From Mycobacterium sp. (lineage in GTDB: Bacteria; Actinomycetota; Actinomycetes; Mycobacteriales; Mycobacteriaceae), in assembly GCA_020438845.1 (NCBI GenBank), contig JAGQTV010000048.1, positions 1 to 35,616 of the forward strand: a DNA stretch of 35,616 bases, in the 5' to 3' direction. Every line of letters begins with the position of its first letter. Position 1 is the first letter of the stretch. Shown piece by piece: positions 9,668 to 26,771 of this stretch. Below the pieces are notes generated by a model. The model worked only from the letters and a program-made list of their open reading frames with translations. It did no database searches and was not told the origin of the DNA. The position numbers and the translations under genes were made by a program.

Positions 9668-11344
9668 TCAGGCGACTTCGGCAGTGATGTCCCGAACCAG
9701 ATCCAGGACCTGCTGGGTTGCGCTATCGGCCTGGCACACAATGGAATCGATGACGACATTGTTCTTCACGCCGAGTCCACGGTCGCAGGCTACGCCCGAG
9801 GGCCCCACCGCCTGGGCGAGCAGTGCGACGTCGTCGTCGGTCACCACCACGTCGGCGAATTTCACTTCGGCACTTGGGTCACTCGGATCCACCTGGCGGA
9901 TTGCGCTGCGCTTGGCACATTGACGCCACTGATCCACCTGGCGGTCACGGGCAGACTCGGCGGCGTCTGCCGATGGATAGGCCACCACTGCCTGCTGGAC
10001 GGATGACGTGCCACGCTTCGGGTCGGGGTTGGCGGCTGTGAAAACGTTGGCCTCCAGTGCGGTGTAACCGCTTCCGGCGTAAGTGGATTGTGCGATCGGT
10101 CCGTATGCTGCCGCGCACTCGGTGCTGACGATCTTCCGGGAGTAGTCGATGGGCTGATTGGTTGAGGCCCCCAGGCGCATCGGCGTACCTAGGATGGAAG
10201 TGATCTTGGCCTCCGACAGCAACAGACGCGGCAGTGCACCCGGTTCGACCAACGGTTCAGCCGGTGTATCCCGTGACGCGTCGGACCCGCCGCCGGATGG
10301 TCCTCGACTCAGCACCAGCGCTCCGATGAGCACGCCGATCAGGATGATGGCAGCAGCGCCCAATCCGAGCACTAGCGGCTTACGGCGAAGCGCCGAGGTC
10401 TGTGCTGCGATCTCGATCATCGGCCTCGGACTCTCTCGGGGCGACACCGATATCGGGGCCTGCGAATGCGCCTTCACACCCAGGGCGCGGGCGGCGGCCT
10501 CGGCAAGTTCGCGGCCGGTCTGGTAACGATCGGCGGGATCCTTGGCCATTGCGGTTGCGATCACATCGTCGATTGCCGGCGGTAGCCCTGGTACTAAGTC
10601 GGTAACCCTCGGCGGCGGCTGCCTGAGGTGAGCCTCGATGACCGCCGCGGCCGGACCGCCAGGGTATGGGGTACGCCCGGTGAGCAGCCGAAACAGGCTG
10701 CACCCCAGCGAATACAGATCAGCACGGCCGTCCGAAGGCCGGCCAGCCAGCACCTCGGGTGCCGCATAGGCGACGGTCGCGAAAACTGAACCAGCCAACG
10801 AGGTCTCGTTCTGGCCTTTGTAGCGCGCGACGCCGAAGTCCCCGAGCAGGACCCGCTCGTCGTGGCTGGAGTCGCCGGAGAGCAGGAAGTTGGCGGGCTT
10901 GACATCGCGGTGGACCACATGACGTTGATGCGCGAAGTCGAGTGCTTTGGCTATCTCCTCGATGACGTGAACCGCGCGCGCCGGCGTCATCTGGCCGTTT
11001 TGCAGCGCGGTGTCCGCATCGGTGCCGGGGACGTACTCCATGGCTATCCAGAGAAGACCGTCATCGCGGCCGCGGCGGTAGACCGTCACGATGTTGGGGT
11101 GGGTCAGCTGTGCGACCACATTCGCTTCGCGCAGGAATCGGGCCTGAAAGTCGGCGTCGTCGGATAACTCCTTGTTGAGTACCTTCAGCGACTCGTATCG
11201 CGGGAGGTCGGGGCTCCGAGCCAGAAATACCGTTCCCATCTGGCCTTCGCCGAGCACGCGCTCGATGCGGTAGCCCGCAATCATCGAACCGCTGGTCAGC
11301 ACTTGTTGAATATAGCCGCGCCGGAACGGTTCGGCTGCCTGCAC
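9668..11344 (-). CDS. Transmembrane Ser/Thr protein kinase with a PknH-type extracellular sensor domain
   Basis: The protein has 558 residues from a GTG at 11344. A later ATG at 11284 would still keep the whole kinase domain. All kinase motifs are present: glycine loop GEGQMG (32-37), the ATP-binding lysine in LKVL (Lys54), HRDVKPAN (145-152), DFG (169-171) and APE (195-197). The activation loop contains several Thr/Ser residues. A single membrane helix (about 324-346) is followed by an extracellular domain of about 210 residues. That domain has four cysteines (410, 476, 520, 537) spaced as in the PknH sensor domain, probably forming two disulfides. It should sense an external signal and phosphorylate cytosolic proteins. 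It is divergent from the espE-like gene with only 110 bases between them, unlike the ESX-1 locus of M. tuberculosis, which has no kinase there. Confidence 0.9.
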
Positions 11345-11454: not shown

Positions 11455-13059
11455 ATGTCAGACGGCTCGCGCGCTGATGGTGGGAAGAGCATCCGCGAAT
11501 TGATTGACAAGGTTCGCGATGCGACAAAGAATGCGGATCTCACGGTCGGGAAGGTCGCCGAATACGCTGATACCGGCCTGGGTGCAATATCCGTGGGCAA
11601 GGATCTCGCCGACGTCGTGGCGGGCGATTATTCCGCGGTTCAGGACCTGTTCGACGACGGAGTCGAATTCATTCAGACCCTGCTCGGTGACGCTTTCGAG
11701 ACGCCAATCATAGAAGCCGGTCTCCTGCTCCTGGACTCCTACAGTGTCGTGTGCGGGGATCCGGTGACGCCGGACGTCGGCGCGATGTTTGGTAACGGAG
11801 CGTCGGCCTTCGAACGCGTTGAAGCTCAGGTCAAGTCGGCGGAGCCCACGGGCGATTGGACCGGAACGTCGTCCATTGCGTACGCATTGGCCGATTCACA
11901 GCAGGCCACCCGGGCTGCTGACATGTCCAGAGCCGACGGAAAGCTGCAGCGGATCATCGCTGATGAGGCTCAGCAGGTGGAGCAAACCCGGAATTTCATC
12001 GACGACCGCGGTTCGGAACTCCACATCGCGATTCTTCCGGCCTTGGCCGCTCTGGCACCGATCTTCGAGCCGGAGGGCCTGGCCGTGAGCGTCGCCATTC
12101 AGATTGCGGCGGTTGCTGCGACAGTGCCGCCCGCCACCGACAAGGTTGTCGAGATGGCCTGGAAAGCCTCTGCAAATGCCCGGAACATCGCGGCGGTTGC
12201 AGATGAGTACAGGGCCGCTGCCGGCGAGCATGTCCGCACGGACGTGGGGTTATCTATGCCTGGCGCGCCCAGCGCTTCAGGATCCAGCGCCCCAGGATCC
12301 AGCGCCCCAGTTGCGCCAGCGCCCGCCGGGCCAGGTGGGTTGGTGGGGCCAGCGGGAGCGGCCCCATTGCCAGGGGCGCCTGGGACACCCGGATCTCCTG
12401 GGACCCCCAGATCTCCTGGACCAGGGGAATCTCCCGGGTTGCCAGGGATGTCAGGCGGCGGCGGGGGCGCTGCGGCACCAGGCGGCGGAGCCGCGGGCGG
12501 TGCGGGCACGCCGGCCGCCTCAGAGGCTCCCGTCTCAGCTGCTCCGACAGCCGGGATACCGACGCCCGGGTCACCTGCCTCCGGCGCTCCTGCATCTGGG
12601 GCGTCGGCCGCACCCTTGGGGAGTCTGCCCGGACTGCCGGGAGGAATCCCGGGCGGCGCGGCAGGCGGCGGGGGTCCCGGCCTGTTGAGTTCGCTACTTG
12701 GTCCAGCCGCTCAGGCACTGAGCCCGATCGGGCAGGGGAATGCGGCCTCCGGAGCTCAGCCGCTCGGGTCCGGCGCGGGAGGTGCGCCCGGAAGTGCGTT
12801 GGGTCAAGCACCGGTGGCAGCGGGTCCGCGGCCAGCCGAATCCGTCGCCGGCGCAGAGCCCACGGATACCGAGCAGGACGGCCCGGCGAGATCCGCCGGG
12901 GACACCGAGGTAACAGAAGCGAAGGCAGGTCCGGGTGGCCAAGGGCCTCGGGCACCCATCCATCTGGAACTGGAACTCGATCCCGAGCAACTGTCCGAGC
13001 CGGTTCGTCTGACGTTGGATCCCAAGAACGTCACGCCGCCACCAGGGCCGGACGCGTAA
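11455..13059 (+). CDS. espE: EspE/EspA-family ESX-1 substrate with a long Pro/Gly-rich tail
   Basis: The product has 534 residues from the ATG at 11455, with AAGGA at 11446-11450 before it. Residues about 85-190 resemble the EspA/EspE N-terminal domain: a W-x-G turn (Trp135-Gly137), Tyr143 and a helix containing QVEQTRNFID. A hydrophobic alpha-helical part follows (190-265). Residues about 275-455 are low complexity, with many GxP/GxxP units resembling collagen. The C-terminus has RAPIHLELELDP; EspE and EspA also end with an acidic segment around RAP(I/V). EspE and EspA are roughly 400 residues, so this one is longer at both ends. It is expected to be secreted by ESX-1 together with the EspF-like protein encoded 41 bases downstream. 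The family call is by eye and the orthology to EspE is inferred from position. Confidence 0.65.
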   Translation: MSDGSRADGGKSIRELIDKVRDATKNADLTVGKVAEYADTGLGAISVGKDLADVVAGDYSAVQDLFDDGVEFIQTLLGDAFETPIIEAGLLLLDSYSVVCGDPVTPDVGAMFGNGASAFERVEAQVKSAEPTGDWTGTSSIAYALADSQQATRAADMSRADGKLQRIIADEAQQVEQTRNFIDDRGSELHIAILPALAALAPIFEPEGLAVSVAIQIAAVAATVPPATDKVVEMAWKASANARNIAAVADEYRAAAGEHVRTDVGLSMPGAPSASGSSAPGSSAPVAPAPAGPGGLVGPAGAAPLPGAPGTPGSPGTPRSPGPGESPGLPGMSGGGGGAAAPGGGAAGGAGTPAASEAPVSAAPTAGIPTPGSPASGAPASGASAAPLGSLPGLPGGIPGGAAGGGGPGLLSSLLGPAAQALSPIGQGNAASGAQPLGSGAGGAPGSALGQAPVAAGPRPAESVAGAEPTDTEQDGPARSAGDTEVTEAKAGPGGQGPRAPIHLELELDPEQLSEPVRLTLDPKNVTPPPGPDA

Positions 13060-13100
13060 TCGATGTCAAACCGCTTTGCCAGGCAGAAAGGAACAAGGAC

Positions 13101-13418
13101 ATGACCGGAGAATTGAAGGTCGTCACGGCTCACGTCCGGGAATTGGCGGTCAAGCAAGGCGAGATCGCTGCTGAGATAGCGCCGGCGCAGGCGGCCACGA
13201 ATGGCGTGACCTGGAATGTGACTGTGAGCCACGGATTGATCTGCACGTCCGCGAGCGTGGCGCTTGCGCAGGCCAATACCGCTCGTGGGTTGGCCTGTGC
13301 GGCGATGCAGAAGACCTCACTGGGTCTGCAGAACGCACTCGGTGCCGCTGCGTTGCATTACGACACCGCCGACGCCCAGTCATCAGGTTCGCTGGACCAG
13401 ACGATGCATCCACGCTGA
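13101..13418 (+). CDS. espF: EspF-like (EspC/EspF family) ESX-1 secreted protein
   Basis: This is a small protein of 105 residues forming a predicted helical hairpin, with the family's VSHG turn (residues 42-45). The C-terminal helix carries the YxxxD type VII secretion signal (Tyr87 to Asp91). It begins MTGELKVV, close to EspF of M. tuberculosis (MTGFLGVV, from memory). AGAAAGGA at 13083-13090 is the ribosome site. EspF and EspC are co-secreted with EspE and EspA respectively, and the gene order espE-espF is kept here. A perfect hairpin follows at 13478-13509. Confidence 0.8.
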   Translation: MTGELKVVTAHVRELAVKQGEIAAEIAPAQAATNGVTWNVTVSHGLICTSASVALAQANTARGLACAAMQKTSLGLQNALGAAALHYDTADAQSSGSLDQTMHPR

Positions 13419-13477
13419 TCGGATGGGGCCGAGCTTCATGCCACGGTTCCTCGTGGCGGCCTAACGGCGCCAAGCAA

Positions 13478-13509
13478 TGAGGCCCGCCACCTTGCGGTGG
13501 CGGGCCTCA
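13478..13509. terminator. Bidirectional terminator between espF and whiB6
   Basis: A perfect 14-bp stem (13478-13491 pairing with 13496-13509, left arm TGAGGCCCGCCACC) encloses the loop TTGC. It lies between the convergent ends of espF (13418) and whiB6 (13525). It is by far the clearest intrinsic-type terminator in the window and should stop both transcripts. Confidence 0.85.
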
Positions 13510-13524
13510 CTGTCGTCAGCCGTG

Positions 13525-13839
13525 CTAGGCGGTCTCGTCGAGCGTGTACCGGGCGGGATTGAGGGTTACCGGATAGCCGTTGCGTTCGGCCAATCCCCGC
13601 AACTGGCGCAGCGCGAAAGTGCGCGGGCGCCCCGACTCCGGGATCACGATGCCTGCCCAAAGGCCCTCCGCGCCGGGCGACTCGCAGGCATCGCGGGCGC
13701 ATTGCCAGCGCCGCGGGCACTGTCGGCACAGGGCTTTCGCCCCCTCGTCGATCTGCAGAGTCCAGCGCTCCGGGTCCTTGGTGCAGGGCCCCAGTGGTAG
13801 CTCCAGAACTGCGGTGTTCGAATCGGTCCGTGAGGTCAT
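13525..13839 (-). CDS. whiB6: WhiB6, iron-sulfur regulator of ESX-1 genes
   Basis: The product has 104 residues from the ATG at 13839. WhiB cluster ligands are Cys19 (PLGPC), Cys38 and Cys41 (CRQC) and Cys47. The family turn G(A)EGLWAG follows at about 56-63, then the basic/hydrophobic C-terminal part with VIPESGR and LAERNGYP. Long stretches match M. tuberculosis WhiB6 (Rv3862c) almost word for word. WhiB6 binds a 4Fe-4S cluster, responds to redox/NO and controls ESX-1 gene expression. An additional Cys52 lies close to the cluster ligands. The gene is divergent from espM, the same pairing as in M. tuberculosis and M. marinum. However, it is located between espF and espG1 rather than upstream of espE. 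Confidence 0.93.
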   Translation of the reverse strand: MTSRTDSNTAVLELPLGPCTKDPERWTLQIDEGAKALCRQCPRRWQCARDACESPGAEGLWAGIVIPESGRPRTFALRQLRGLAERNGYPVTLNPARYTLDETA

Positions 13840-13881
13840 CGTGAACGTCGGTCTTTCTATGGTAGGACAACAACACCGCAA

Positions 13882-13910
13882 ACTATAGCGTTAATAAAGT
13901 TTAAGTTCAA
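13882..13910 (-). promoter_or_regulatory. whiB6 promoter (sigma-A type)
   Basis: Read on the minus strand, TTGAAC (13910-13905) is separated by exactly 17 bases from TATAGT (13887-13882), a good housekeeping promoter. The predicted transcript starts near 13875, leaving a leader of about 36 bases to the whiB6 ATG. The -10 region lies within ACGCTATAGTT, which closely matches the ACGCTATAATT upstream of espE. Confidence 0.6.
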
Positions 13911-13912
13911 GT

Positions 13913-13923
13913 TCGGAATCCGA
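13913..13923. promoter_or_regulatory. Palindrome upstream of the whiB6 -35, candidate EspM operator
   Basis: TCGGA at 13913-13917 and TCCGA at 13919-13923 form an 11-base palindrome around one central base, directly upstream of the whiB6 -35 element. Next to it, AAGTTTAAGTTCAAGTTC (13897-13914) is a triple 6-base repeat. In M. marinum EspM represses whiB6 by binding their shared intergenic region, so either element could be its site here. No binding data can be inferred from sequence alone. Confidence 0.35.
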
Positions 13924-14007
13924 CAACTCTTTCAACGCTGGCGTAGCGGTGGGGTAAACTCGCGAAGCTAGACGGCTCGAATCCAGCCACTCCTCGCAGT
14001 CCGAAGG

Positions 14008-14781
14008 ATGTCCCGTACGTTGAGCGATCCTGCTTCGACCCGTGGCGGCGACGATCCCGATGACGCGTCCGCCCCGATCAGCCACGGTGACGATCCTGGC
14101 CGTGTCCGGGCCGGCGCGGCGGCCGCGGCCCGACGGCGGCAATTGGGAATCAGCCAGCGCAGCCTTGCCGCTGACGGAGTGATCACCGCGGCTGCCCTTA
14201 TCGCCTTCGAGAAGGGGCGTAGTTGGCCGCGTGAAAGCACTCGCAGCAAGCTCGAAGCGGTACTTCAGTGGGAGCCCGGTTCGATCGACCGCATCCGTCG
14301 GGGTGAAGCGCCAGACGGTCCGTCATCGAAGTCCGCTCTCAGTGACGAGCCTTCTCTGCTGGTGGCGGCATTGGCGGCTGCTGCCGGCGCGTTGACCTCG
14401 GTGATTGAGGCGCTGCCGCCTCCCGATCAGCCTGATTTCCCAGCCCGGGCCACCGCGGCGCTGGCTGACCTGCGCAAGCTTGAGTCCGTGGCATCAAAGG
14501 CGGCCCGCGTTGGCCCCGCTACCACTGAGCTGTTGCGGGCGCTGGCCACCACCCGACGTCAGTACGACGACTTGATGCTCTCTGCGGCCCGAAGCCCCGG
14601 AGCCACTCTCGGTCAGCGGGTCTATGCGGTACGACGCCTGAACGCATTGACCGACGCAGAGCTCGCCCAGGCGAGCGGAATATCCGAACAGGTCATTGCC
14701 AAAGCTCAAGCCGAACAACCGCTGTCAGCCACCGAGGCCGCGGCGCTGGAGACGGCCGTCGCGCAGTTCAGCTGGACCTGA
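14008..14781 (+). CDS. espM: EspM-like helix-turn-helix regulator divergent from whiB6
   Basis: The protein has 257 residues. A helix-turn-helix domain occupies about residues 35-100, with wording (RAGAAAAARRRQLGISQRSL and FEKGRSWPRE) that closely matches M. tuberculosis Rv3863/EspM from memory. The rest is helical and Ala-rich, and a second possible helix-turn-helix lies near the C-terminus (LTDAELAQASGISEQVIAKAQ begins about 216). EspM is a repressor of whiB6 in M. marinum, and the divergent placement is retained. The start is uncertain: GAAGG abuts the ATG at 14008, and a TTG at 14020 is possible. An in-frame TAG at 13969-13971 limits any extension. The protein therefore lacks the long N-terminal region I recall in Rv3863 (about 390 residues). 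Confidence 0.8.
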   Translation: MSRTLSDPASTRGGDDPDDASAPISHGDDPGRVRAGAAAAARRRQLGISQRSLAADGVITAAALIAFEKGRSWPRESTRSKLEAVLQWEPGSIDRIRRGEAPDGPSSKSALSDEPSLLVAALAAAAGALTSVIEALPPPDQPDFPARATAALADLRKLESVASKAARVGPATTELLRALATTRRQYDDLMLSAARSPGATLGQRVYAVRRLNALTDAELAQASGISEQVIAKAQAEQPLSATEAAALETAVAQFSWT

Positions 14782-14804
14782 AGGTCCTGACTTGCGGGGA
14801 GCGG

Positions 14805-14939
14805 ATGGCGGGTAGCTCACGCAAAGGACGGTTGGCTGGGCTCCTCGTTGCTAGGCTCGCGTCAGTGTCAGTGGGGCGGGCTGTGAAGCAGATCGAGCTC
14901 GCACCAGCGGCGATGACGATTGAGGCCGGGGGAGCGTGA
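14805..14939 (+). CDS. Possible 44-residue ORF translationally coupled to espG1
   Basis: An ATG at 14805 preceded by GGGGAG (14796-14801) opens a 44-codon frame. Its TGA (14937-14939) overlaps the espG1 ATG as TGATG. The product would be small and basic in its first half (SRKGRLAGLLVARL), with a possible amphipathic helix. I know no homologue. It could be a true small protein or a coupling/leader ORF for espG1. Chance is also possible, because stop codons are rare at this GC content. Confidence 0.35.
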   Translation: MAGSSRKGRLAGLLVARLASVSVGRAVKQIELAPAAMTIEAGGA

Positions 14940-15790
14940 TGACGTCCTTCCACCCCAGCGGTGGACCAGAGGCCCTCATCGACGACGTCGTCGGCGTGGA
15001 ACTAACGGTCGACGGCATGCTGGTAGTCGCGGACCGCCTTGGGCTGGGCGACTTCCCGACGGTTCTCGGGATCCGCCTCAACATCCCGTTTCCGGACCTG
15101 TGCAAAACCGTCTGGGAGCAGGTCGCCAGGGACCTGACCGCGCAGGGTGTGTTGTCGGCCGCCGGCCAACCCCACCCGGCGGTTGCCGACATGCTGCACA
15201 CATTGAGCAGGTCGGATCGAACCTTGGAGGGACGCTGGTGGCGCCGTGACCGGGGTGGTGAGATGACCCGGTTCGCTGTATCTCGCAGAGCAGACCGACA
15301 CGTGATCGCGGTGCGCCACGGCGAACTCGTGGCGCTGCAGCGCGTTGCCTCGAAGGTCGGCTTGGTCAGCATGGTGACCGCGGTGCTCGGCTCAGGCGAG
15401 CCCGCCGAGGTCGAGCCGCTGACGGCGCTGGCAGCCACACTCGCCCAGTGCCGGACGGCCGAACAGCTGGGACAGTTCGACATCGGCCTTGCCTCGGCAC
15501 GGACGTACGCCGCCCTCATCGACCAACCGGCAAGTTGGTCGGAGATCACCGCCGGCCAGCGGCATCCCGGCGGCACGGTGAGCCACACCGAGGTCGCCGC
15601 GGGCGTGCTCGACGGCCCTCAGGGGCGGATCGTGTCAATTCCGCGCCGGGTTAACGGCGAGCTCTACGGAAGTTTTCTTCCAGGCAGTGACACCAACCTT
15701 GCGCGGGCCCTGGACGGCTTGCTGGAATTTCTGCCCGCTAGAGCCTGGTTGGACGCCGAAGAATTCGGTGCGGCCGACGGCTTCGAGTGA
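14939..15790 (+). CDS. espG1: EspG1, ESX-1 PE/PPE-specific chaperone
   Basis: The product has 283 residues from the ATG at 14939; a GTG one codon earlier sits too close to the GGGGGAG ribosome site at 14928-14934. The sequence matches M. tuberculosis EspG1 along its whole length, with hallmarks VVGVELTVDGMLV, TLEGRWWRRD and ASQRHPGGT-like AGQRHPGGT. The C-terminal run NGELYGSFLPG leads into NLARALDGLLE. EspG proteins bind the tips of PE-PPE heterodimers in the cytosol and keep them soluble until export. No pe/ppe gene is found in this window, so its clients must be encoded elsewhere. espH follows after 34 bases. Confidence 0.93.
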   Translation: MTSFHPSGGPEALIDDVVGVELTVDGMLVVADRLGLGDFPTVLGIRLNIPFPDLCKTVWEQVARDLTAQGVLSAAGQPHPAVADMLHTLSRSDRTLEGRWWRRDRGGEMTRFAVSRRADRHVIAVRHGELVALQRVASKVGLVSMVTAVLGSGEPAEVEPLTALAATLAQCRTAEQLGQFDIGLASARTYAALIDQPASWSEITAGQRHPGGTVSHTEVAAGVLDGPQGRIVSIPRRVNGELYGSFLPGSDTNLARALDGLLEFLPARAWLDAEEFGAADGFE

Positions 15791-15824
15791 GACTTACAAT
15801 CAGATAGGCAGAAGGACAACAACT

Positions 15825-16277
15825 TTGACGCATGAACCCGACGACGGAGATGACTGGGAGATTCCCGACTTCGGTTTGGGTGTTCCCGTGCACGCTGACG
15901 ACGATGCTTCGCTGGACGAATCCGAGGGGCGGGGTTTGCCGCTGTTCAGCGTCACAAACCCTGCCGGGACGATCACCGCTTCGGCTTCGATTGCCGGACG
16001 CCTGCATCGGATCGAACTGACGGCGGGAGCCAAATCGGCGGCTGCGATAACGGAAGCTGAACTCTCGCAGGAGATTCTCCTGGTGGGCCGGCTCGCCGGT
16101 CAGAGGGCTCGCTCGGAACTCTTCACCTACCTGGTCGAGCGGACGGCCGAGGCCGGACAGGACCCGGTGGCGACCGGCCGGTTCCTCAGGGACGACGTCG
16201 GGCTGCCGACCCCTGAGGAGTCGGCGGCGGCCCGGGCCGAGGCGTTTGGTGCGCGGTACCTGGACAGCCATGGCTGA
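15825..16277 (+). CDS. espH: EspH-like ESX-1 accessory protein
   Basis: The product has 150 residues, probably from the TTG at 15825, which has AAGGA at 15812-15816 at good spacing; no in-frame ATG or GTG suits better. An acidic N-terminus (residues 1-45) is followed by LFSVTNPAGTITAS, then an Ala-rich helical region and the C-terminal LPTPEESAAARAEAFGARY. All of these have counterparts in M. tuberculosis EspH (Rv3867). EspH is a cytosolic accessory/chaperone protein that supports ESX-1 substrate secretion, including EspE and EspF in M. marinum. It overlaps the eccA1 start by 8 bases. Confidence 0.85.
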   Translation: MTHEPDDGDDWEIPDFGLGVPVHADDDASLDESEGRGLPLFSVTNPAGTITASASIAGRLHRIELTAGAKSAAAITEAELSQEILLVGRLAGQRARSELFTYLVERTAEAGQDPVATGRFLRDDVGLPTPEESAAARAEAFGARYLDSHG

Positions 16278-17994
16278 CCACCTCGTCAACGTTTTCGCCA
16301 GCGCCGTTGGCATGCTTGGGTCTTCGCCGGCCAGAGCTCACGAGCTGTTCAGAGAGATCACCGACTACGACGAGTCGGCCTGCGACGCCTGGGTCGGGCG
16401 AATCGGCTGCGGCGACATGGATCGAGTCACGCTCTTCCGGGCGTGGTACTCGCGGAAGAACTTCGGTCGACTGGCCGGGGCGGCCGAGGTCTCCGTCAAT
16501 GCCCTTGGCGCCCGGGTGCCGATCGGCGGGGAGTTCGGCAACATCACCTATCCGGTCAACTCGCCGCTGGCTGTGACGATGGGGTTCGCGGTCTCGGAAG
16601 CCATCGCCGGCAACTACGCCGATGCGATGGAGGCCATCGACGACTGCGCTGCGCCGGCCGGAGCCGGTTACTTGATCGCCTGGGTCAAGGCGGTGATCTA
16701 CGGGGCTGCTCAGCGCTGGACCGACGTCATCGATCAGGTCAAGAACGCCGAATCATGGCCCGATCCGTTCCTGGCCGCCGCCGCGAAGGTGTCTCACGGC
16801 GTCGCGGCGGCGAACCTGGGCTTGTTCAACGAGGCCGAACGGCGTCTGACGGAAGCGAATTCCTCGCCTGCGGGTGCAGCCTGCTCCACCGTCATCGCCT
16901 GGTATCTCGCGATGACCCGCCGAGCCCTCGGTAATGAAGGCGGCGCGGTGGTGCTGCTCGAGTGGTTGCAGGCCACCAACCCGAGCCCCACCATCGCAGA
17001 GGCGCTCAAGAACCCGGGATACCGGTTGGTGACCACCACCGCCGAAAGCATCCAGTCACGCACGGATGCCTGGGATCCACGCAGCGTTGTGGCGGACAAC
17101 TCCGGCCGCGAGGCGCTGCTGGCGGAGGCCCAGAAGGAACTGGACAGCCAGATCGGGCTGGGAAGGGTCAAAGAGCAGGTCGACCGCTACCGGGCGGCCA
17201 CGCAGATGGCCAAGGTTCGGGGCGCCCGTGGCATGAAAGTGGGACAGTCCAGTCGGCACATGATCTTCACCGGCCCGCCGGGCACCGGGAAGACCACCAT
17301 CGCTCGGGTCGTCGCCAATATCCTCGCCGGTCTGGGGGTTATCGCTGAACCCAAATTGATCGAGACGTCCCGTAAGGACTTCGTCGCGGAATACGAGGGC
17401 CAGTCCGCGGTCAAGACCACCAAGACCATCGACCGTGCCTTGGGCGGTGTGCTATTCATCGACGAGGCCTATTCGCTGGTTCAGGAACGCGACGGGCGTA
17501 CCGACCCATTCGGCATGGAGGCGTTGGACACCCTGCTGGCCCGCATGGAGAACGACCGGGACCAACTTGTGGTGATCATCGCCGGCTACGGCAGTGACAT
17601 CGACCGTCTACTGGAAGCCAACGACGGCCTCAGATCACGGTTCGCAACGCGTATCGAGTTCGAGTCCTACTCGCCGGATGAGATAGCTGCGATCGCGGAA
17701 GTCATTGCGGAGAAGAATGATTCGCGCCTCGATGTTGACGCCGCCGGGCATGTCGTGAAAGCGGCGACGTCGCTGGGCGGTCAGCGGCTCAACGGCAAGC
17801 CGGCCCTGGATATCGCAGGAAACGGCCGCTATGCGCGTCAATTGGTCGAAGCCGCTGAGGAATGCCGAGACTTGCGACTGAGCCGTTCGCCGAACCTGGA
17901 GCAGCTTGCCACCGACGAACTGGCCACGGTGACCGGCCAGGATATGGCCGCTGCGATAGCTGCGGTTCATGCGCGGCTCGGGGTCGGGGAGTAG
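16270..17994 (+). CDS. eccA1: EccA1, AAA+ chaperone ATPase of ESX-1
   Basis: The product has 574 residues from the ATG at 16270 (MADHLVN, matching EccA1). An N-terminal TPR-like helical domain (about 1-280) is followed by a CbxX/CfqX-type AAA+ domain. This has Walker A GPPGTGKTT (about 336-344), Walker B VLFIDEAY (about 393-400) and the arginine-finger region GLRSRFATRIEF. EccA1 is cytosolic; it binds ESX-1 substrates and chaperones and is thought to power their handling during export. Its frame overlaps espH by 8 bases and ends 3 bases before eccB1, so they are one operon. Confidence 0.96.
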   Translation: MADHLVNVFASAVGMLGSSPARAHELFREITDYDESACDAWVGRIGCGDMDRVTLFRAWYSRKNFGRLAGAAEVSVNALGARVPIGGEFGNITYPVNSPLAVTMGFAVSEAIAGNYADAMEAIDDCAAPAGAGYLIAWVKAVIYGAAQRWTDVIDQVKNAESWPDPFLAAAAKVSHGVAAANLGLFNEAERRLTEANSSPAGAACSTVIAWYLAMTRRALGNEGGAVVLLEWLQATNPSPTIAEALKNPGYRLVTTTAESIQSRTDAWDPRSVVADNSGREALLAEAQKELDSQIGLGRVKEQVDRYRAATQMAKVRGARGMKVGQSSRHMIFTGPPGTGKTTIARVVANILAGLGVIAEPKLIETSRKDFVAEYEGQSAVKTTKTIDRALGGVLFIDEAYSLVQERDGRTDPFGMEALDTLLARMENDRDQLVVIIAGYGSDIDRLLEANDGLRSRFATRIEFESYSPDEIAAIAEVIAEKNDSRLDVDAAGHVVKAATSLGGQRLNGKPALDIAGNGRYARQLVEAAEECRDLRLSRSPNLEQLATDELATVTGQDMAAAIAAVHARLGVGE

Positions 17995-17997
17995 TTC

Positions 17998-19488
17998 ATG
18001 GCCGGTTATCGGCTTACCACCAAAGTCCAGGTCAGCGGCTGGCGTTTTCTGCTCCGCAGAGTCGAACACGCCATCGTCCGGCGGGACACCCGCATGTTCG
18101 ACGATCCGCTGCGGTTCTATAGCCGGGCGGTTTCAGCGGGAATCATCATCGCTACCCTCGTCGGCTTGGGGGCGGTGTTGTCGGCCTACTTCAAACCCCT
18201 GGGCAAGCGCGGCAGCGACAGTCTTGTGGTGGACCGTTCGACCAATCAGCTCTACGTGATGCTGCCGGGATCCTCGCAGCTGCGTCCGGTGTACAACCTG
18301 ACTTCGGCCAGGCTTGTGCTTGGCACCGCAGGAAACCCGGTGGCGGTCAAGTCCGAGGAGCTCAACAAGATCCCCAAGGGCCAACCGATAGGCATACCGG
18401 GAGCCCCTTATGCCACCCCGGTTTCCAAGGATCCCGCCTCGACATGGTCCCTGTGCGACACCGCCATGAACCCACAGTCGGTGGCGCCAACCGTGGAGAC
18501 TGCAGCGATAGTGCTGCCGCTGACGACGGACGCGGCGATCGGACCGATGGCTGAAGGCCAGGGCGTCGTGGTGTCGTTCGAGAAGCGTGACTGGCTGGTC
18601 ACCAAAGAGGGTCGTCATGCCATCGACCTCGCCGACCGCGCCGTGGCTGCCGCGGTTGGGGTGCCGGTCACCGTGAAGACTTCCCCCATCTCTCAGGGGT
18701 TGTTCAACGCGATCAAGGACGCCGGCCCGTGGCAGCTGCCCCCGGTCGACAGGGCGGGTGAACCCAACACCAGTGGTTTGTCGCCAAATCTGGTTGTGGG
18801 CTCTGTGTTTCAGGCGCTGGTGGACAAGGAAATCCAAGACTATGTGGTGCTTTCCGATGGCGTCGCCAAAGTCAACACGATCACCGCTGCGGCGCTGCGC
18901 GCCGCGGACTCGCACGGTCTGGTGACCCCACCGATGATCGAGAGCAGCACGGTGTCCCGCATTCCAGAGCGCGTTTATCCTTCTCCGCTGCCGGGCGTCG
19001 CGTTGAACATTCTGGACCGGGCCGACGCCCCGGTGCTGTGTTGGACGTGGGCGAGGGCGGCCGGGGATCAGTCGGCCCAGACCGCGGTGCTGGCCGGCAG
19101 GCACCTGCCGCTGACACCGGACCTGCTCAATACCGGTGTGCGCCAGATAGCCGGCGGCCTGACTGTGTATATCCAAGGCGGGCAATATGTCCGGTTGCAA
19201 GCGCCCGACCCCAGGTATGGCGAAAGCTTGTATTACGTTGACCCGCAAGGCGTCCGATATGGTCTCGCCGACGAGGACACCGCGAAGGTGTTAGGACTGA
19301 CAGATCCGAAGAAGGCGCCGTGGCAGGTGGTCAATCTGCTCGTCGACGGGCCCGTGCTGTCGAAGCAGGCCGCGCTGGTCGAGCATGACACGCTTCCCGC
19401 TGATCCCCGGCCGCGTCCCATCGAGTCGGGTCCCATCGAGTCGGGTCCCATCGGGTCGGGTCCCATCGAGTCGGGTGGTGGCCGGTGA
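17998..19488 (+). CDS. eccB1: EccB1, ESX-1 membrane complex component
   Basis: The product has 496 residues. A basic cytosolic N-terminus ([31 protein letters not shown]) matches EccB1, then one membrane helix (about 43-63) and a large periplasmic domain. That domain has the conserved disulfide pair near residues 154 and 347, and the run WARAAGDQS after it. It ends [22 protein letters not shown]. EccB with EccC, EccD and EccE forms the type VII inner-membrane complex. The last residues are an unusual tandem repeat, PIESG four times (third unit PIGSG), encoded by 15-bp DNA repeats. The stop overlaps the eccCa1 GTG. Confidence 0.96.
19416..19475 (+). repeat. 15-bp coding minisatellite at the end of eccB1
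   Basis: There are four adjacent copies of TCCCATCGAGTCGGG (19416-19430, 19431-19445, 19446-19460 with one A-to-G change, and 19461-19475). The unit length is a multiple of three, so copy changes would keep the frame and only lengthen or shorten the EccB1 tail. M. tuberculosis EccB1 has no such repeat as far as I recall. Confidence 0.9.
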
Positions 19489-21728
19489 CCACCAGGAAGT
19501 TCACACCGACGATCCGACGAGGTCCACGGCTTACGCCAGGGGAGATCACGGTGGCGCCGCCAGACGATCTCGGCATCGAGATTCCCCCGTCGGGCCTTCA
19601 GAAAGCCCTGCCCTGGGTGATGGGTGGCGGGATGCTCGGCATGATCGCCATCATGCTGTTCACCGGCGTTCGGCAGCTGTCCCCGTACATGCTCATGATG
19701 CCGCTGATGATGATCATGGGGACTGTGGGTTTCATGGCCGGCGGTGGGCCTGGCGGCAAGAAGATTCCCGAAATCGACGAGGACCGCAAGGAGTACCTTC
19801 GTTACCTGGGGAACATCCGCAGCCGGGTCACCGACTCCGCCAATGCCCAGGTGGCGTTCTTCGCTTACCACGCTCCCCATCCCGACGACCTGCTCTCACT
19901 CGTCGGTTCCACCAGACAGTGGTCACGACCGGCCAACTCCGAGTTCTATGCGGCCACCCGGGTCGGAATCGGGTCGGAGCCCGCGGTCGACCGGCTGCTC
20001 AAGCCTGCGATCGGTGGCGAACTGTCGGGCCCGCAGACTGCCCCGCAAGCCCATCTGGAACCAGTCAGCCACATGTGGCTGACGAAGTTTCTGCGCACCC
20101 ATGGACTTATCCACGACTGCCCGAAGCTGGTTGCGCTGCGAACATTTCCCACGATCGCTGTTGGTGGCGACCCTGCCGGTGCCGCTGCCCTGATGCGAGC
20201 CATCGTGTGCCACCTTGCGGTCTTCCACCCGCCGGATCTCTTGCAGATTCGGGTGCTTACCGATGATCCGGAGAACCCGGATTGGGAGTTTTTCAAGTGG
20301 CTACCCCATACGCAGAACAAGGCCGAGACCGACGAGGCGGGCTCGGCCCGGATGGTTTTCACCCGCACGGACGGCTTCTCCGACTTGGCGGGTCGGGGTC
20401 CGCATACGCCCGATGCTGTCCCCGGGGGCCCTTGGGTGGTCGTCGTGGATCTCACCGGTCAGGGGGCGGGGTTCCCGGTGGACGGTCGTGCGGGGGTGAC
20501 GGTGCTGACCCTGGGCAATCACCGCGGTTCGGCCTACCGGCTCAAAGTGCATCCGGACGGGACAGCAGAGGACAAGCTGCCCAATCACGGATACCGCCTG
20601 CTGGTGACGAAGTGTGACGCAGTTTCGCCGAGCGAAGCCGGCCGGATCGCCAGAAAGCTTGCCGGATGGTCGATCACTGGCGCGATCATCGACAAGGGCA
20701 CCCGGGTTCAGAAGAAGGTTGCCACCGAGTGGCACCAACTCGTCGGAGCAGAGGCCGTCGAGCAGGTAACCCCGGCCCGGTGGCGGATGTTCGTCGACAC
20801 CGACCGCGACCGCCTACGGATACCGTTCGGTCACGAGCTGAAGACCGGCGACATCATGTACCTCGACATCAAGGAGGGAGCGGAATTCGGCGCCGGCCCG
20901 CACGGAATGCTCATCGGTACAACGGGCTCGGGCAAGTCGGAATTTCTTCGTACGCTGATTTTGTCGCTGGCGGCCACGCATCATCCGGATCAGGTCAATC
21001 TTCTGCTGACCGACTTCAAGGGTGGTTCGACATTCCTGGGAATGGAAAAACTGCCGCACACGGCAGCGGTGGTGACCAACATGGAGGAGGAGGCCGAACT
21101 CGTCAGCCGCATGGGCGAGGTGCTCATGGGCGAACTCGACCGCCGGCAGGCGATTCTGCGCCAAGCCGGTATGCAAGTGGGTGCGGCGGGCGCGTTGTCG
21201 GGCGTGGCCGAGTACGAGAAGCACCGTGAGCGCGGGGCGGATCTACCCCCACTGCCGACGTTGTTCGTCGTAGTCGATGAGTTCGCCGAGCTGCTGCAGA
21301 ACCACCCGGACTTCATCTCACTTTTCGACAGGATCTGCCGCGTGGGTCGGTCGCTTCGCGTACATCTGTTGCTGGCGACGCAGTCGCTGAACACCGGTGG
21401 CGCGCGCATCGACAAGCTCGAGCCGAACCTCACCTATCGAATCGCGCTGCGCACCACAAGTTCAGCGGAATCCAAAGCGGTCATCGGCACCCCGGAAGCG
21501 CAGTACATCACCAACAAGGAAAGCGGCGTCGGATTCCTGCGGGTAGGTATGGAGGACCCCGTGAAATTCCAGACCGCCTATACGGGTAACAACTACGTGC
21601 CCAAGTCACTGACGCAGCCAGACGCGGGGCCGAACGATTCAAGGATCGCCGAGCTTGACGGCTTCCGAGTTCGGAAGTTCACGACCTCGGCCGTGTTCGA
21701 CTCTGCAGGAGCGACAAGTGAGTGCTGA
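19485..21728 (+). CDS. eccCa1: EccCa1, membrane-anchored half of the split ESX-1 motor ATPase
   Basis: The product has 747 residues, the same length as M. tuberculosis EccCa1. The GTG start overlaps the eccB1 stop. Two membrane helices (about 38-80) are followed by a linker/DUF region and one FtsK/SpoIIIE ATPase domain. That domain has Walker [10 protein letters not shown] (about 478-486), an [12 protein letters not shown] segment and Walker [14 protein letters not shown], then the LLATQSL sensor. It couples ATP hydrolysis to export of ESX-1 substrates and works with the separate EccCb1 subunit. The start of eccCb1 lies inside the last 11 bases of this gene. Confidence 0.97.
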
Positions 21729-23466
21729 CGCCGAGCCGCGGGTGCTGCGGGAGGTAGTCCTCGACCAACTCACCACCGGGGAGGTGCGTGCCTACCGAAT
21801 GTGGTTGCCGCCTCTGGCGGATCCCTCGCCGGTGGACGAACTTATCAGGCGCGATCGACGCCAGCCGCTGCGGTTCAGCCTCGGAATCATGGACGAGCCT
21901 CGCCGTCACCGTCAGGAAGTATGGGGTGTCGACGTGTCCGCCGGTGGAGGAAACATCGCGATCGGCGGTGCGCCACAGAGTGGAAAGTCGACATTTCTGC
22001 AGACGATGATGCTCTCGGCTGCGATGACTCACAGCCCACGCGACGTGCAGTTCTACTGCATCGACTTCGGTGGTGGGGGGTTGATCTACCTCGAGGATCT
22101 TCCCCACGTCGGCGGGGTAGCCGCGCGCACCGATCCGGACAAAGTAAATCGGACTGTTGCTGAGATGAAAGCTGTTCTGCGGCAACGGGAAAAAGCGTTC
22201 AAAGAGTATCGTGTCGGTTCGATTTCAGATTATCGGCAGATGCGCCGGGATCCCGGTCACCCGGCTTCGCAGGACCGGTTCGGTGACGTTTTCCTCGTGA
22301 TCGACGGCTGGCCCGCTTTCGTCGGTGAGTTTCCCGACCTCGAGCCGGTCGTGCAGGACGTGGCCAGCCAGGGCTTGGCGTTCGGGGTCCACACCGTGAT
22401 CGCCACCCCCCGGTGGACGGAACTGAAGGCTAAGGTCCGCGACTACCTGCAGACCAAGATTGAGTTCCGGCTCGGTGATGTCAACGAGACCCAGATCGAC
22501 CGGATGACTCGGGAGATCCCGCTCAACCGTCCAGGCCGGGCCATCTCGGCAGAAAAGCACCACCTGATGATCGGCGTCCCTCGACTCGACGGTATCGGCA
22601 GCGCCGAGAATCTTGTTGCCGCGATGTCGGCGGCCGTCGACCAGGTCGCCGCGGCCAACACCGACCTCGCGCCACAGGTGCGAGTGCTTCCCGAACGTAT
22701 CCACCTGCGCGAGGTCGACCCGAACCCGCCTGGGCCGCAGTCCGATTACCGAACCCGCTGGACCGTCCCGGCGGGCATCCGGGAATCAGACCTCACGCCG
22801 GCTACCGCCGACATGGCAGTGATGCCGCACCTGCTGATCTTCGGCGCCGCCAAGTCCGGCAAGACCACCATTGCGCACGCCATATCCCGGGCGGTCTGCG
22901 CCCGCAACGACCCATCGCAGGTGCGGTTCATGCTCGCCGATTTCCGCTCCGGGCTGCTCGACGCGGTACCGCAAAGCCACCTGCTCGATGCGGGCGCCAT
23001 CAATCGGAACATCAACTCATTGGAAGAGGCGATCAAGGCGCTCGCGGCCAACCTCGCCAAGAGGCTGCCGCCGTCAGACCTCACCGCGGCGCAATTGCGT
23101 TCCCGGTCGTGGTGGAGTGGTCCGGACATCGTGCTGCTGGTCGACGACTGGCACATGATTGTGGCCGCCAGCGGGGCGATCCCGCCCATGGCGCCGTTGG
23201 CTCCGCTGCTGCCGGCTGCGGCCGACATCGGCCTGCACGTCGTGCTCACCTGCCAGATGAGCCAGGCTCACAAGGCGACGATGGACCGGTTCGTGGGCCC
23301 GCTGTACGGGGCCGGGTCGCCCACCCTGTTCCTGTCCGGCGACAAGCAGGAGTTCCCGTCGAGCGAGATCCGGCTCAAGCGCAGGCCCCCCGGCCAGGGC
23401 TTCTTCGTCACCCCGGACGGCAAAGAAGTCATCCAGGCGGCTTACATCGAACCGCCCGCCGAGTAG
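21718..23466 (+). CDS. eccCb1: EccCb1, soluble half of the split ESX-1 motor ATPase
   Basis: The product has 582 residues from the GTG at 21718 ([18 protein letters not shown], matching EccCb1), preceded by AGGAG at 21706-21710. Two FtsK/SpoIIIE ATPase domains are present, with Walker [11 protein letters not shown] (about 82-91) and [10 protein letters not shown] (about 375-384). The C-terminal domain holds the pocket that binds the EsxB tail in M. tuberculosis. The C-terminus stops at YIEPPAE, a few residues shorter than the version I recall from M. tuberculosis. In known ESX-1 loci pe35 follows here; in this window nothing of the type follows. Confidence 0.97.
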
Positions 23467-23475
23467 CGGCGGGTG
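23453..23475 (+). terminator. Hairpin overlapping the eccCb1 stop codon
   Basis: CCCGCCG (23455-23461) and CGGCGGG (23467-23473) form a 7-bp GC stem. It is extended by a G-U pair and a C-G pair to 23453-23475, with the TAG stop codon in the five-base loop. There is no U-tract. Its position at the abrupt end of the ESX cluster, before a convergent gene, suits a terminator. Confidence 0.5.
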
Positions 23476-23573
23476 CAGAGGTTCGGCGCGTGACCGGCTG
23501 GAGTTCCGTTTCCGTGATCGAGGGTGGCACTGCTTCCGGCGCATCGAATTGAAAAACGATGACCAGCGCCCAG

Positions 23574-23972
23574 CTAATCGGCGGACAGAGTCGTCTGGTC
23601 AACGGGGCAATAGCCTGCGATTTGCCCCTCGTCCAGTAAATACTGACAAATGTTCATGGCCGAATCAGGGCTCTCCGGATCGATGGGATCGACGCCGCCC
23701 GCCACTTGCACGCTTGGGGCGGTTCCGGGGTTCGAAATGGGGAGGCACTCTCCAGACTTGTTGACCGTCATGCCGACCGCGCACTCGGCAGCCGGCACGC
23801 CCGTCCCTTGCTGTCTTGGGATGGTCCCGGGGTCCGAAACGGGGACACACTCTCCGGACTCGTTGACCGTCATGCCGTTCATGCACTCGGTGGTCGGTGC
23901 CGCACCGGCCGGTGCCGCGGCAACGGCCGGAATTGCTGACATCGTCAGGAAGACAGCCGCCATGACTGGCAA
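23574..23972 (-). CDS. Small secreted protein with two 34-residue Cys repeats
   Basis: The product has 132 residues from a TTG at 23972; an ATG three codons later is the alternative, and an in-frame stop upstream prevents much extension. Neither start has a good ribosome site. A signal peptide (MAAVFLTMSAIPAVAAA) is followed by two tandem units of the form EC-x2-GMTVN-x-SGEC-x-P-x-S-x-PGT. A C-terminal part contains two more cysteines (ICQYLLDEGQ, GYCP). The two units derive from a 102-bp DNA duplication. I know no named family. It is likely an exported, disulfide-bonded protein of the cell envelope. It is convergent with eccCb1. Confidence 0.65.
   Translation of the reverse strand: MPVMAAVFLTMSAIPAVAAAPAGAAPTTECMNGMTVNESGECVPVSDPGTIPRQQGTGVPAAECAVGMTVNKSGECLPISNPGTAPSVQVAGGVDPIDPESPDSAMNICQYLLDEGQIAGYCPVDQTTLSAD
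23720..23905 (-). repeat. 102-bp tandem duplication inside the secreted Cys-repeat gene
   Basis: Two similar segments lie exactly 102 bases apart; for example the shared TTGACCGTCATGCCG begins at 23761 and 23863. They encode the two 34-residue units. The copies have diverged at many third positions, so the duplication is not recent. Confidence 0.8.
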
Positions 23973-24164
23973 TAACCGTCGTGGCCTGACGTTGCTGTGA
24001 ACGGCACTTCGTTAGTTGCCCTTCCGCGAGTCACCGTCGGGAATAGCAAAGGAGTATTGCATCTGCATCCCTTTACCGGGCGGTATTCCGACTTTTCGTC
24101 GGGCCGCAAAAGTTGCCGTCAATTGATGTCGGGCTGAATCGGCGAGTTCGCGTCCCGGGCATGA

Positions 24165-25013
24165 CTAAGGCTGGCTGAAACCCCAGTCCAGAAGCGCGCG
24201 GCCCTCGTCCCACAGGTCGTCGCTGCCGTACATCATCACGGCGATCAGCCGCTTGCCGTCGCGCTGGGCCATGGCGACGTAGGTTTCCTGGGCGAGGTTG
24301 GTGTAGCCGGTCTTGCCGCCGATGAAGCCCGGATAGTCGGGCAGCAGGTGATCGTGGCTGGCGATCTGCTTCGCCCCACCCTTCCCGTCCGGAAAGACAG
24401 CCGTGGACTGGTGGATGATCTGGGTGAACAGCGGGTAGTTCAGCGCCGCACGGTAAATCATCGCCAGGTCATAGGGAGTGGTCACCGACTCCCAGCCAGG
24501 TCCGTCCAGGCCCGATGGCGAACCAGCCCGGGTGGAGCGCGCACCGACCTGCGCGGCCTTGAGGTTCATCTTCTGAACCGCCACCGCAGGCCCGCCGAGC
24601 ATCTCGCCGAGCAGGTTCGCGGCGTCGTTTCCGGACACCATCAGCAGCGCGTCGAGCAGTTGGCGGGTGGTGTAGATCGCGCCGGGAACCAATCCCACAC
24701 AGGAGCACTCGACGTCGGTACTCGACGGCGTTGCCCGCACCGCAATCGCCGGGTTGAGCTGGTCGAGCACCACCATTGCCAGTAACGCCTTGATGGTGCT
24801 TGCTGGGGCGTACTGGCCGTACAGGTCCGTGCCGCCGAGAACGCGGCCGCTGATCGTGTCGGCCACCAACCAGGCCCGCGCGGGACCTGCCGGCGGGGCG
24901 AGGGCGGCGGGTTGCGGGTCCGGTTCGGCGGCGGCGACCGGCGGCGGGGCCAGTGCTACGGCGGCGGTGACGACAGCGCCGGCGTAATGCAGCCATCGAG
25001 ACATCAGGGCCAT
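24165..25013 (-). CDS. DacB2-like D-alanyl-D-alanine carboxypeptidase (paralogue 1)
   Basis: The product has 282 residues from the ATG at 25013; a second ATG at 25004 is possible. The open frame upstream of this only lies antisense to the neighbouring gene. A signal peptide (to about residue 29) precedes a peptidase S11 domain with ASTIK (Ser72 and Lys75), VSGN and GGKTGYTN, the three active-site motifs. A CSC pair follows the first motif (VECSCVGL). It should trim the terminal D-alanine of peptidoglycan stem peptides outside the membrane. It shares most of its layout with the DacB2 orthologue 0.8 kb downstream, so the two are likely duplicates. It is divergent from the PAP2 gene. Confidence 0.9.
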   Translation of the reverse strand: MALMSRWLHYAGAVVTAAVALAPPPVAAAEPDPQPAALAPPAGPARAWLVADTISGRVLGGTDLYGQYAPASTIKALLAMVVLDQLNPAIAVRATPSSTDVECSCVGLVPGAIYTTRQLLDALLMVSGNDAANLLGEMLGGPAVAVQKMNLKAAQVGARSTRAGSPSGLDGPGWESVTTPYDLAMIYRAALNYPLFTQIIHQSTAVFPDGKGGAKQIASHDHLLPDYPGFIGGKTGYTNLAQETYVAMAQRDGKRLIAVMMYGSDDLWDEGRALLDWGFSQP

Positions 25014-25035
25014 GGTCGCTGAGGTTAGCCGGGCC

Positions 25036-25063
25036 AGACCGCGGTATGGGTTCGATGCGGTCT
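25036..25063. promoter_or_regulatory. Inverted repeat between the carboxypeptidase and PAP2 genes
   Basis: AGACCGC (25036-25042) and GCGGTCT (25057-25063) form perfect 7-base arms with a 14-base spacer. The arm centres are 21 bases apart, two turns of the helix. The repeat lies in the 94-base gap between divergent genes, a typical place for a dimeric repressor or activator site. Confidence 0.4.
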
Positions 25064-25107
25064 CTGATTGGTAGCGGAACGTCCGCCGGGCCCGGCTTTG
25101 GTTCACA

Positions 25108-25833
25108 ATGATCGGCATTGATGCCCCGGTGATTGTCCTGATCGTCGTGGCCGCGGTGTTCCTCGCGGCCGCGCTCGCCGTTCGTGGCCGCGTCGGGCTG
25201 GTTCTGCTCTCAGCCGGGTTGTTCACCCTCTTGGCGGCCCTGGCGGTGGGGATCAACTCCGCGTCGATGTCCGGGCTCGACACCTCCGTTGCGATCTGGT
25301 TCGACGACCACCGGACCCGCAGGCGCGACCTGGAGGCCGTTGGAATCTTCGGCTACATCGGTCGGCCGATTCACGTCCTGATTCCAGCGTTGGTGTTGGG
25401 GACGTTGCTCTCGTTGCGGGTCCGTTCGGTCCTGCCGGTTGCGTGCGTGACCGGGGGAGTCGGAATCGGGGTTGTCGTCGAGGGAACGCTGAAGGCCGTG
25501 ATCGGCCGCACCGCGACAACCGGACCCTTGGTGGACTACCCGCACTCATACCCGTCCGGGCATGTCACGGGCACCTCGGCGCTCTTGGGAATGATCGCCA
25601 TCTGTCTCGGTGTGGGACGCAGCCGCCGGGTGAAACTGACGGTGTCGGCGCTGGCGGTGGCCGGAGTCGTGTGCGTCGCCTTCCTGGCGCTGTACACCGG
25701 CGCCCACACCTTCACCGACGTCATCGGCGGCATGTTCTTGGGCGGGGCGATCTGCGCGTTGGGAGCCGCGCTCCTGGGTGGCTCCGGGCCCGCGGCGGCG
25801 AATCGTCCACGATCCGTGGCAGCGCGGGAGTGA
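25108..25833 (+). CDS. PAP2-superfamily membrane protein with an altered active site
   Basis: The product has 241 residues with about six membrane helices. Of the three PAP2 motifs, the first is recognisable (KAVIGR, Lys129 to Arg134). The second is intact (PSGH, 149-152) and the third keeps His200 and Asp204 (GAHTFTD). The arginine expected six residues before the histidine is Ala194, so catalytic activity is doubtful or differently organised. Family members dephosphorylate lipid pyrophosphates such as undecaprenyl or decaprenyl pyrophosphate, which would fit its position between two peptidoglycan carboxypeptidase genes. The ribosome site is weak. Confidence 0.75.
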   Translation: MIGIDAPVIVLIVVAAVFLAAALAVRGRVGLVLLSAGLFTLLAALAVGINSASMSGLDTSVAIWFDDHRTRRRDLEAVGIFGYIGRPIHVLIPALVLGTLLSLRVRSVLPVACVTGGVGIGVVVEGTLKAVIGRTATTGPLVDYPHSYPSGHVTGTSALLGMIAICLGVGRSRRVKLTVSALAVAGVVCVAFLALYTGAHTFTDVIGGMFLGGAICALGAALLGGSGPAAANRPRSVAARE

Positions 25834-26718: not shown

Positions 26719-26771
26719 AGGCAAAGAGACTAACCAATGGGCTGGAACCGGAGGGTGTTGAATCTATAGAC

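Follow-up and report, generated by a model that had tools for sequence, protein, structure and literature searches.

The ESX-1 core of a Mycobacterium genome is complete but dispersed over three sites, probably as a result of two inversions

The window, i.e., the whole stretch of DNA that was analysed, comprises the entire contig C25 (35,616 bp) of a Mycobacterium sp. draft genome (G000; 4.53 Mb in 118 contigs, 99.78% complete, 2.41% contamination). It carries ESX-1 genes from an espE-like gene to eccCb1, followed by unrelated genes; this gene content had been proposed in a sequence-only reading and was confirmed by curated models, Pfam and, for EspH, tblastn. The left flank is formed by a gene for a PknH-type kinase (9668..11344, minus strand; Pfam Pkinase and PknH_C), which has the identical place and orientation in the nearest relative in the comparison, the MAG G061 (ESX-1 locus L008). 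Two substrate genes come next on the plus strand: an EspE-like one (11455..13059; Pfam EspA_EspE, 67.8 bits) and an EspF/EspC-like one (13101..13418; Pfam T7SS_ESX_EspC, 74.9 bits) with the YxxxD motif YDTAD at residue 87. The gene of the WhiB6 regulator was present as claimed, although its location had to be corrected to the minus strand at 13525..13881 (Pfam Whib, 29 bits; 78% to G061); the plus-strand ORF 13477-13800 in this region produced no match in Pfam or NCBIfam. The EspM-type regulator (14008..14781, plus strand) is short (257 aa) and matched NF052403 with 284.8 bits, which is below the cut-off of 550 bits, at model positions 116-366 only. It lacks approximately 115 N-terminal positions of the model and aligns to its G061 homologue over the whole length. 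The remaining ESX-1 genes, all on the plus strand, encode the EspG1 chaperone (14936..15790; Pfam ESX-1_EspG, 170.6 bits), EspH (15687..16277; recognized by tblastn to the relatives' ESX-1 loci and not by a model), and, each with a model score above the cut-off, the EccA1 ATPase (16246..17994; TIGR03922, 714 bits; Walker A present), EccB1 (17998..19488; TIGR03919, 497 bits), EccCa1 (19485..21728; TIGR03924, 764 bits; Walker A present) and EccCb1 (21655..23466; TIGR03925, 668 bits; two Walker A motifs), the last ESX-1 gene before the break.

The ESX-1 genes thus end at eccCb1, as had been stated, but not with envelope genes starting within 110 bases. Instead, eccCb1 is followed by a junction segment of 698 bp (23467..24164) without a strong match in the other loci compared, which holds an orphan ORF of 132 aa on the minus strand (23574-23972; no Pfam match) with its 3' end approximately 110 bases past eccCb1. 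The N-terminus of this ORF is leader-like, and a stretch of 100 bp inside it is duplicated in tandem (79% alike). The first dacB-like carboxypeptidase gene begins only at 24165 (24165..25283, minus strand; Pfam Peptidase_S11), and a second one lies at 25837..26724 (minus strand; Pfam Peptidase_S11). The gene names dacB2, rnd and dxs and the Rv-type labels are those that we take to apply from M. tuberculosis, with Pfam support where it is given.

The genes usually following eccCb1 are indeed absent from the window, and a genome search, as had been proposed, located those sought on two other contigs: PE35, PPE68, EsxB, EsxA, an EspI-like protein and EccD1 are encoded on the minus strand of C112, and MycP1, EccE1 and EspB on C62. 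Family searches in the whole genome recovered two EccD genes (C112 and C1), two mycosins (C62 and C1) and eight WXG100 matches, six of them above the cut-off, including one pair on C112 and one on C1. A separate 292-aa protein on C49 (L107:2055-2933) combines an EsxB-like WXG100 domain (64% to EsxB) and an internal YTSTDE motif with a long proline-rich C-terminal part; its gene is located near an IS110-type transposase. EccCa1, EccCb1 and EccD1 of the ESX-1 type were found once each. EccC is split into EccCa1 and EccCb1, with TIGR03924 and TIGR03925 on separate ORFs, and EccCb1 was closest to other EccCb1 proteins of similar length. The ESX-1 core proteins EccA, EccB, EccD, EccE and mycosin are all present, together with the EsxB/EsxA and PE/PPE pairs, EsxB having a C-terminal YxxxD, and with an accessory set of EspE/F/G/H, EspI, EspB, WhiB6 and EspM (the latter below its cut-off). 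EspH and EspI were identified by homology to the relatives' loci. Hence, the ESX-1 core of this organism is complete and encoded in three places: the window, C112 and C62. A contiguous cluster is a usual, not a functional, feature of ESX-1; here, the genes are distributed over three contigs with reciprocal junctions.

Alternatively, the genes in the window might be a partial duplicate of a complete ESX-1, or a stand-alone motor serving another ESX membrane complex, both of which had been considered in the sequence-only reading. The partial copy is contradicted by the single EccCa1, EccCb1 and EccD1: neither a second eccA1-eccCb1 set nor a second, fuller ESX-1, as would accompany an ESX-6-like partial duplicate, was found in the genome. 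The service to another complex is an unnecessary assumption because eccD1, eccE1 and mycP1 of the ESX-1 type are present on other contigs. It could draw some support from the fact that the genome's one further ESX system detected is also split, with eccB-eccC apart from the rest; however, that system owns EccA, EccB, EccC, EccD, EccE and a mycosin, and we consider either form of this explanation extremely improbable.

The second system is divided between the eccC and the PE/PPE genes. C110 (L092:9348-15240) carries eccB and a gene for a 1410-aa EccC followed by an aldehyde dehydrogenase gene, and the other part is located on C1 (L090:9490-18900) with genes for PE, PPE, two WXG100 proteins, EspG, EccD, mycosin, EccE and EccA. 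The C-terminal part of the C110 EccC, compared with the solved M. tuberculosis domains, scored 238 bits with EccC2, 114 with EccC5 and 85 with EccCb1, while at full length its best match was EccC5 (588 bits) among the matches listed, which include no full-length EccC2; the C1 EccD fitted EccD5 best (130 bits). From these similarities, the system is called ESX-2-like. G061 has the same eccC-aldehyde dehydrogenase neighbourhood, and in M. kyorinense (G064) and G029 the genes from eccB to mycosin form one run. The number of EccC systems above the cut-off was two in both G000 and G061, two in G002, four in G066, five in G029 and seven in G064. Neither ESX-3 nor ESX-4 was found with the EccC model in G000 or G061, or by the EccD and mycosin counts in G000. 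The low number of ESX systems is not unique to the G000/G061 lineage, since G002 also has two EccC.

The arrangement of ESX-1 in relatives was analysed in 80 loci picked by EccB1. In 78 of them eccCb1 is followed by ppe68 and/or esxB, and the genes found are in the usual order; both eccCb1 and esxB are contained in 77, the 78th, L037, has ppe68 after eccCb1, and the loci L046 and L076 end before eccCb1. In the nearest relative, G061, the locus is unbroken from pknH and espE to eccD1; identity to G000 amounts to 86-97% in the Ecc and Esx proteins and to 40-83% in the other ESX-1 proteins. A survey of the genus, based on an even draw of 248 genomes and chosen cut-offs for EccCb1 and EccD1, detected the former in 136 genomes and the latter in 137 (both in 133, EccCb1 alone in three, EccD1 alone in four). 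In 115 of the 133, both genes share a contig and a strand, with 91 to 5122 bp (median 4094) in between; in the other 18 they are on different contigs. In 17 of these 18, the contig of at least one of the genes ends no more than approximately 3.4 kb away on the side of the break, as judged from gene coordinates in 13 genomes and from contig sizes in four; these loci look like assembly gaps, but may include a true split. This leaves G000 as the only positive eccCb1/eccD1 split among the 133 genomes with both genes, with 12 kb of sequence past eccCb1 on C25 and, on C112, approximately 26 kb past eccD1 in the direction of pe35. The survey also revealed a second ESX-1-type copy in G014 (G014:C7:913171-916506), where eccD1 starts 91 bp after eccCb1, leaving no space for PE/PPE and esxBA in between. 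In the trees of EccCb1 (77 rows) and EccD1 (70 rows), G000 groups with L008 with 100% support each, indicating a common history for the genes on either side of the cut; a horizontal origin of one half is therefore unsupported.

The break after eccCb1 (break II) was resolved by comparison with G061: eccCb1 meets dacB and pe35 meets an amidohydrolase gene in G000, while in G061 eccCb1 meets pe35 and dacB meets the amidohydrolase gene with a spacing of approximately 97 bp. In all 13 relatives searched, the amidohydrolase gene and a dacB-like gene are at most 6 kb apart; in nine of them this dacB-like gene is orthologous to the one at 24165 in the window and no more than 1.9 kb away, and in the other four the second dacB alone was found. 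At the nucleotide level, the homology to G061 extends up to 23465 and the cut is directly after the eccCb1 stop codon (stop at 23466), and on C112 the spacer between eccCb1 and pe35 is retained as far as L088:18780 (with 74% over its last 94 positions), the amidohydrolase gene following from 18817, so the two joins are reciprocal. This supports the earlier suggestion of a split by rearrangement with the second half lying elsewhere, and the synteny of relatives on both sides of the eccCb1-dacB junction agrees with it. The two G000 junctions match each other best over 59 positions at 73%, and the two sites still unbroken in G061 over 56 positions at 77%. An IS-mediated event was considered and rejected: Pfam gave no match for the junction's orphan ORF, and the junction repeats are short, save the tandem pair inside that ORF.

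Break II was observed in G000 only, among the genomes searched, and is known from one draft assembly of 118 contigs. This invites the explanation that C25 is chimeric at about 23470, by an assembly or binning error, and that ESX-1 is in truth contiguous, all the more so as there is 2.41% contamination and the locus is apparently hard to assemble, given the 17 other genomes with contig breaks here. Such an error, however, needs two reciprocal false joins at sites without a common long repeat, with approximately 26 kb kept on C112 past eccD1 in the direction of pe35 and 12 kb on C25 past eccCb1, while another break of the same cluster recurs in the independent assembly of G061. A misjoin near 23470, raised in the sequence-only reading, appears unlikely from the partner junction on another contig, and we regard an artificial split as very improbable. 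Most likely, a complete ESX-1 core was genuinely rearranged here, and the locus is neither a partial copy nor, probably, an assembly error.

The other break (break I) joins eccD1 with rnd and espB with dxs and is common to G000 and G061; in G000 a decarboxylase gene is also present between eccD1 and rnd. In all six other dxs regions examined, rnd is at most 2.7 kb from dxs, and eccE1 is approximately 2-11 kb from eccD1 in five of the six other ESX-1 loci examined, G064 being left out of this count with the two genes on different contigs. The sixth, G011, has a distance of 68 kb, showing that the eccD1-eccE1 part of the locus is not tightly linked elsewhere either; mycP1 and eccD1 of this genome are on one chromosome, 69 kb apart (G011:C1:1488802-1558266). 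Inversions were modelled with signed gene markers, in which espB and eccE1 were treated as a single block; the start order was that of the complete chromosome of M. senegalense (G066, locus L062). One inversion produced 6/6 of the G061 junctions (two new, four unchanged), and two inversions produced 6/6 of the G000 junctions (four new, two unchanged). Starting from the G002 or G029 order, two inversions were needed for G061 and three for G000, and a single exchange fails since its joins would excise a circle. Break I is probably older than break II, as it is present in G061 too, and it is probably an inversion common to G000 and this nearest relative.

The preferred explanation, which we hold with high confidence, is that the window contains the 5' piece of the organism's sole ESX-1, split by two inversions, and that the pieces probably work in trans. 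The older inversion would have cut between eccD1 and the espB-eccE1-mycP1 block, swapping ends with the rnd|dxs site, and the later one, observed in G000 only, right after eccCb1, swapping ends with the dacB|amidohydrolase site. The outcome would be the three places described: espE to eccCb1 in the window, pe35 to eccD1 on C112 and mycP1-eccE1-espB on C62.

A split system may also be a dead one, with pieces which are relics awaiting degradation. The listed ESX-1 ORFs are open, and Walker A, WXG, the mycosin DTG/HGT/GTS motifs and the EsxB YxxxD tail are all present, which argues against decay. Evolutionary rates were compared for 14 ESX-1 genes (espE, espF, pe35, espB and whiB6 were left out). 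Pairwise dN/dS between G000 and G061 was 0.051-0.188 in 13 of them and 0.386 in espH, against 0.077-0.206 in eight control genes, with a partly saturated dS of 0.35-1.13. The number of unique residues over the 14 genes was 193 on the G000 branch and 199 on the G061 branch, and 129 on each in seven controls with an outgroup; the G000 branch is thus no faster than its sister over the tested ESX-1 genes, in a test which spans the whole branch since the G061 split and is therefore blind to selection after break II. Compatible with decay are the espH value, the EccCa1 count (25 unique residues on the G000 branch versus 13 on the G061 branch) and the strong divergence of espE (40% over 277 aa) and espB (32% over 64% of the protein) from G061, and break II may be too recent for visible decay. 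Taken together, an inactivated ESX-1 appears unlikely, albeit less so than the explanations by misassembly or duplication.

In a functional three-part ESX-1, the pieces would be transcribed separately and the expressed proteins would assemble in trans into an ordinary, secreting ESX-1 complex. This is considered most likely since the reading frames of the pieces are open, most of the genes are conserved, and the region upstream of pe35 was kept. A consensus promoter scan upstream of pe35 found none, but such scans miss other promoter types. A palindrome, AACTTCAGCAAAGTT, is located before pe35 at L088:18713-18727 (C112:58712-58726). It is present in one of 77 related loci (L008 of G061), has no match within the window, and its core is present at a single place in the G000 genome; it was therefore rejected as a mark of a shared regulon and is silent on co-regulation of the pieces. 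Recognition of EsxB by EccCb1 through the YxxxD tail is established knowledge, and the tail retained here may be recognized by EccCb1 in the same way.

In terms of genes and their internal order, the pieces are shared with the mycobacterial ESX-1 clusters of M. kyorinense (L016) and M. senegalense (L062), including the split EccCa/EccCb, EspG/EspH, EsxB/EsxA, EccD1, EccE1 and MycP1; however, ESX-1 of these species forms one cluster, in contrast to the three separate places in G000. Partial parallels exist in sections of two published studies. ESX-2 of the M. avium complex is marked there by 'the transposition of EccB2 and EccC2' (PMC4791881), i.e., eccB-eccC are apart from the rest as in the ESX-2-like system of G000, but that case concerns ESX-2, while in G000 ESX-1 was cut at two sites by traceable exchanges. 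ESX-6 of M. marinum, according to the section concerned, is a partial ESX-1 duplicate (PMC13354803) and resembles the window in being an incomplete ESX-1 gene set at one place; M. marinum, however, also keeps an ESX-1 cluster, and no second copy was found in G000. Among the titles of the full-text literature matches listed, there was none on an inversion-split ESX-1, which is weak evidence of absence. In the ESX-1 of G000 the machine is a known one, and what is new is its arrangement.

The section of the ESX-evolution survey that deals with distribution places ESX-3 in all studied mycobacteria, bar a named exception, and reports the loss of ESX-4 in M. leprae (PMC4791881); the apparent lack of both ESX-3 and ESX-4 in the G000/G061 lineage contrasts with that part of the survey. 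The balance of evidence tilts slightly towards a natural, working ESX-1 put together in trans from three unlinked transcription units, in a lineage whose two remaining ESX systems are both dispersed and which lacks ESX-3 as well as ESX-4. It is customary to regard ESX clusters as blocks that are inherited whole. An ESX-1 with two cuts, whose breakpoints are mapped and whose parts are intact, provides a natural test of the need for co-transcription of motor, channel and substrates, and the ESX-1 machine may not need neighbouring genes. Locus-based typing would score the ESX-1 of G000 as partial or deleted despite its complete core. If this reading is right, type VII secretion would not require gene clustering, and this lineage would not require ESX-3.
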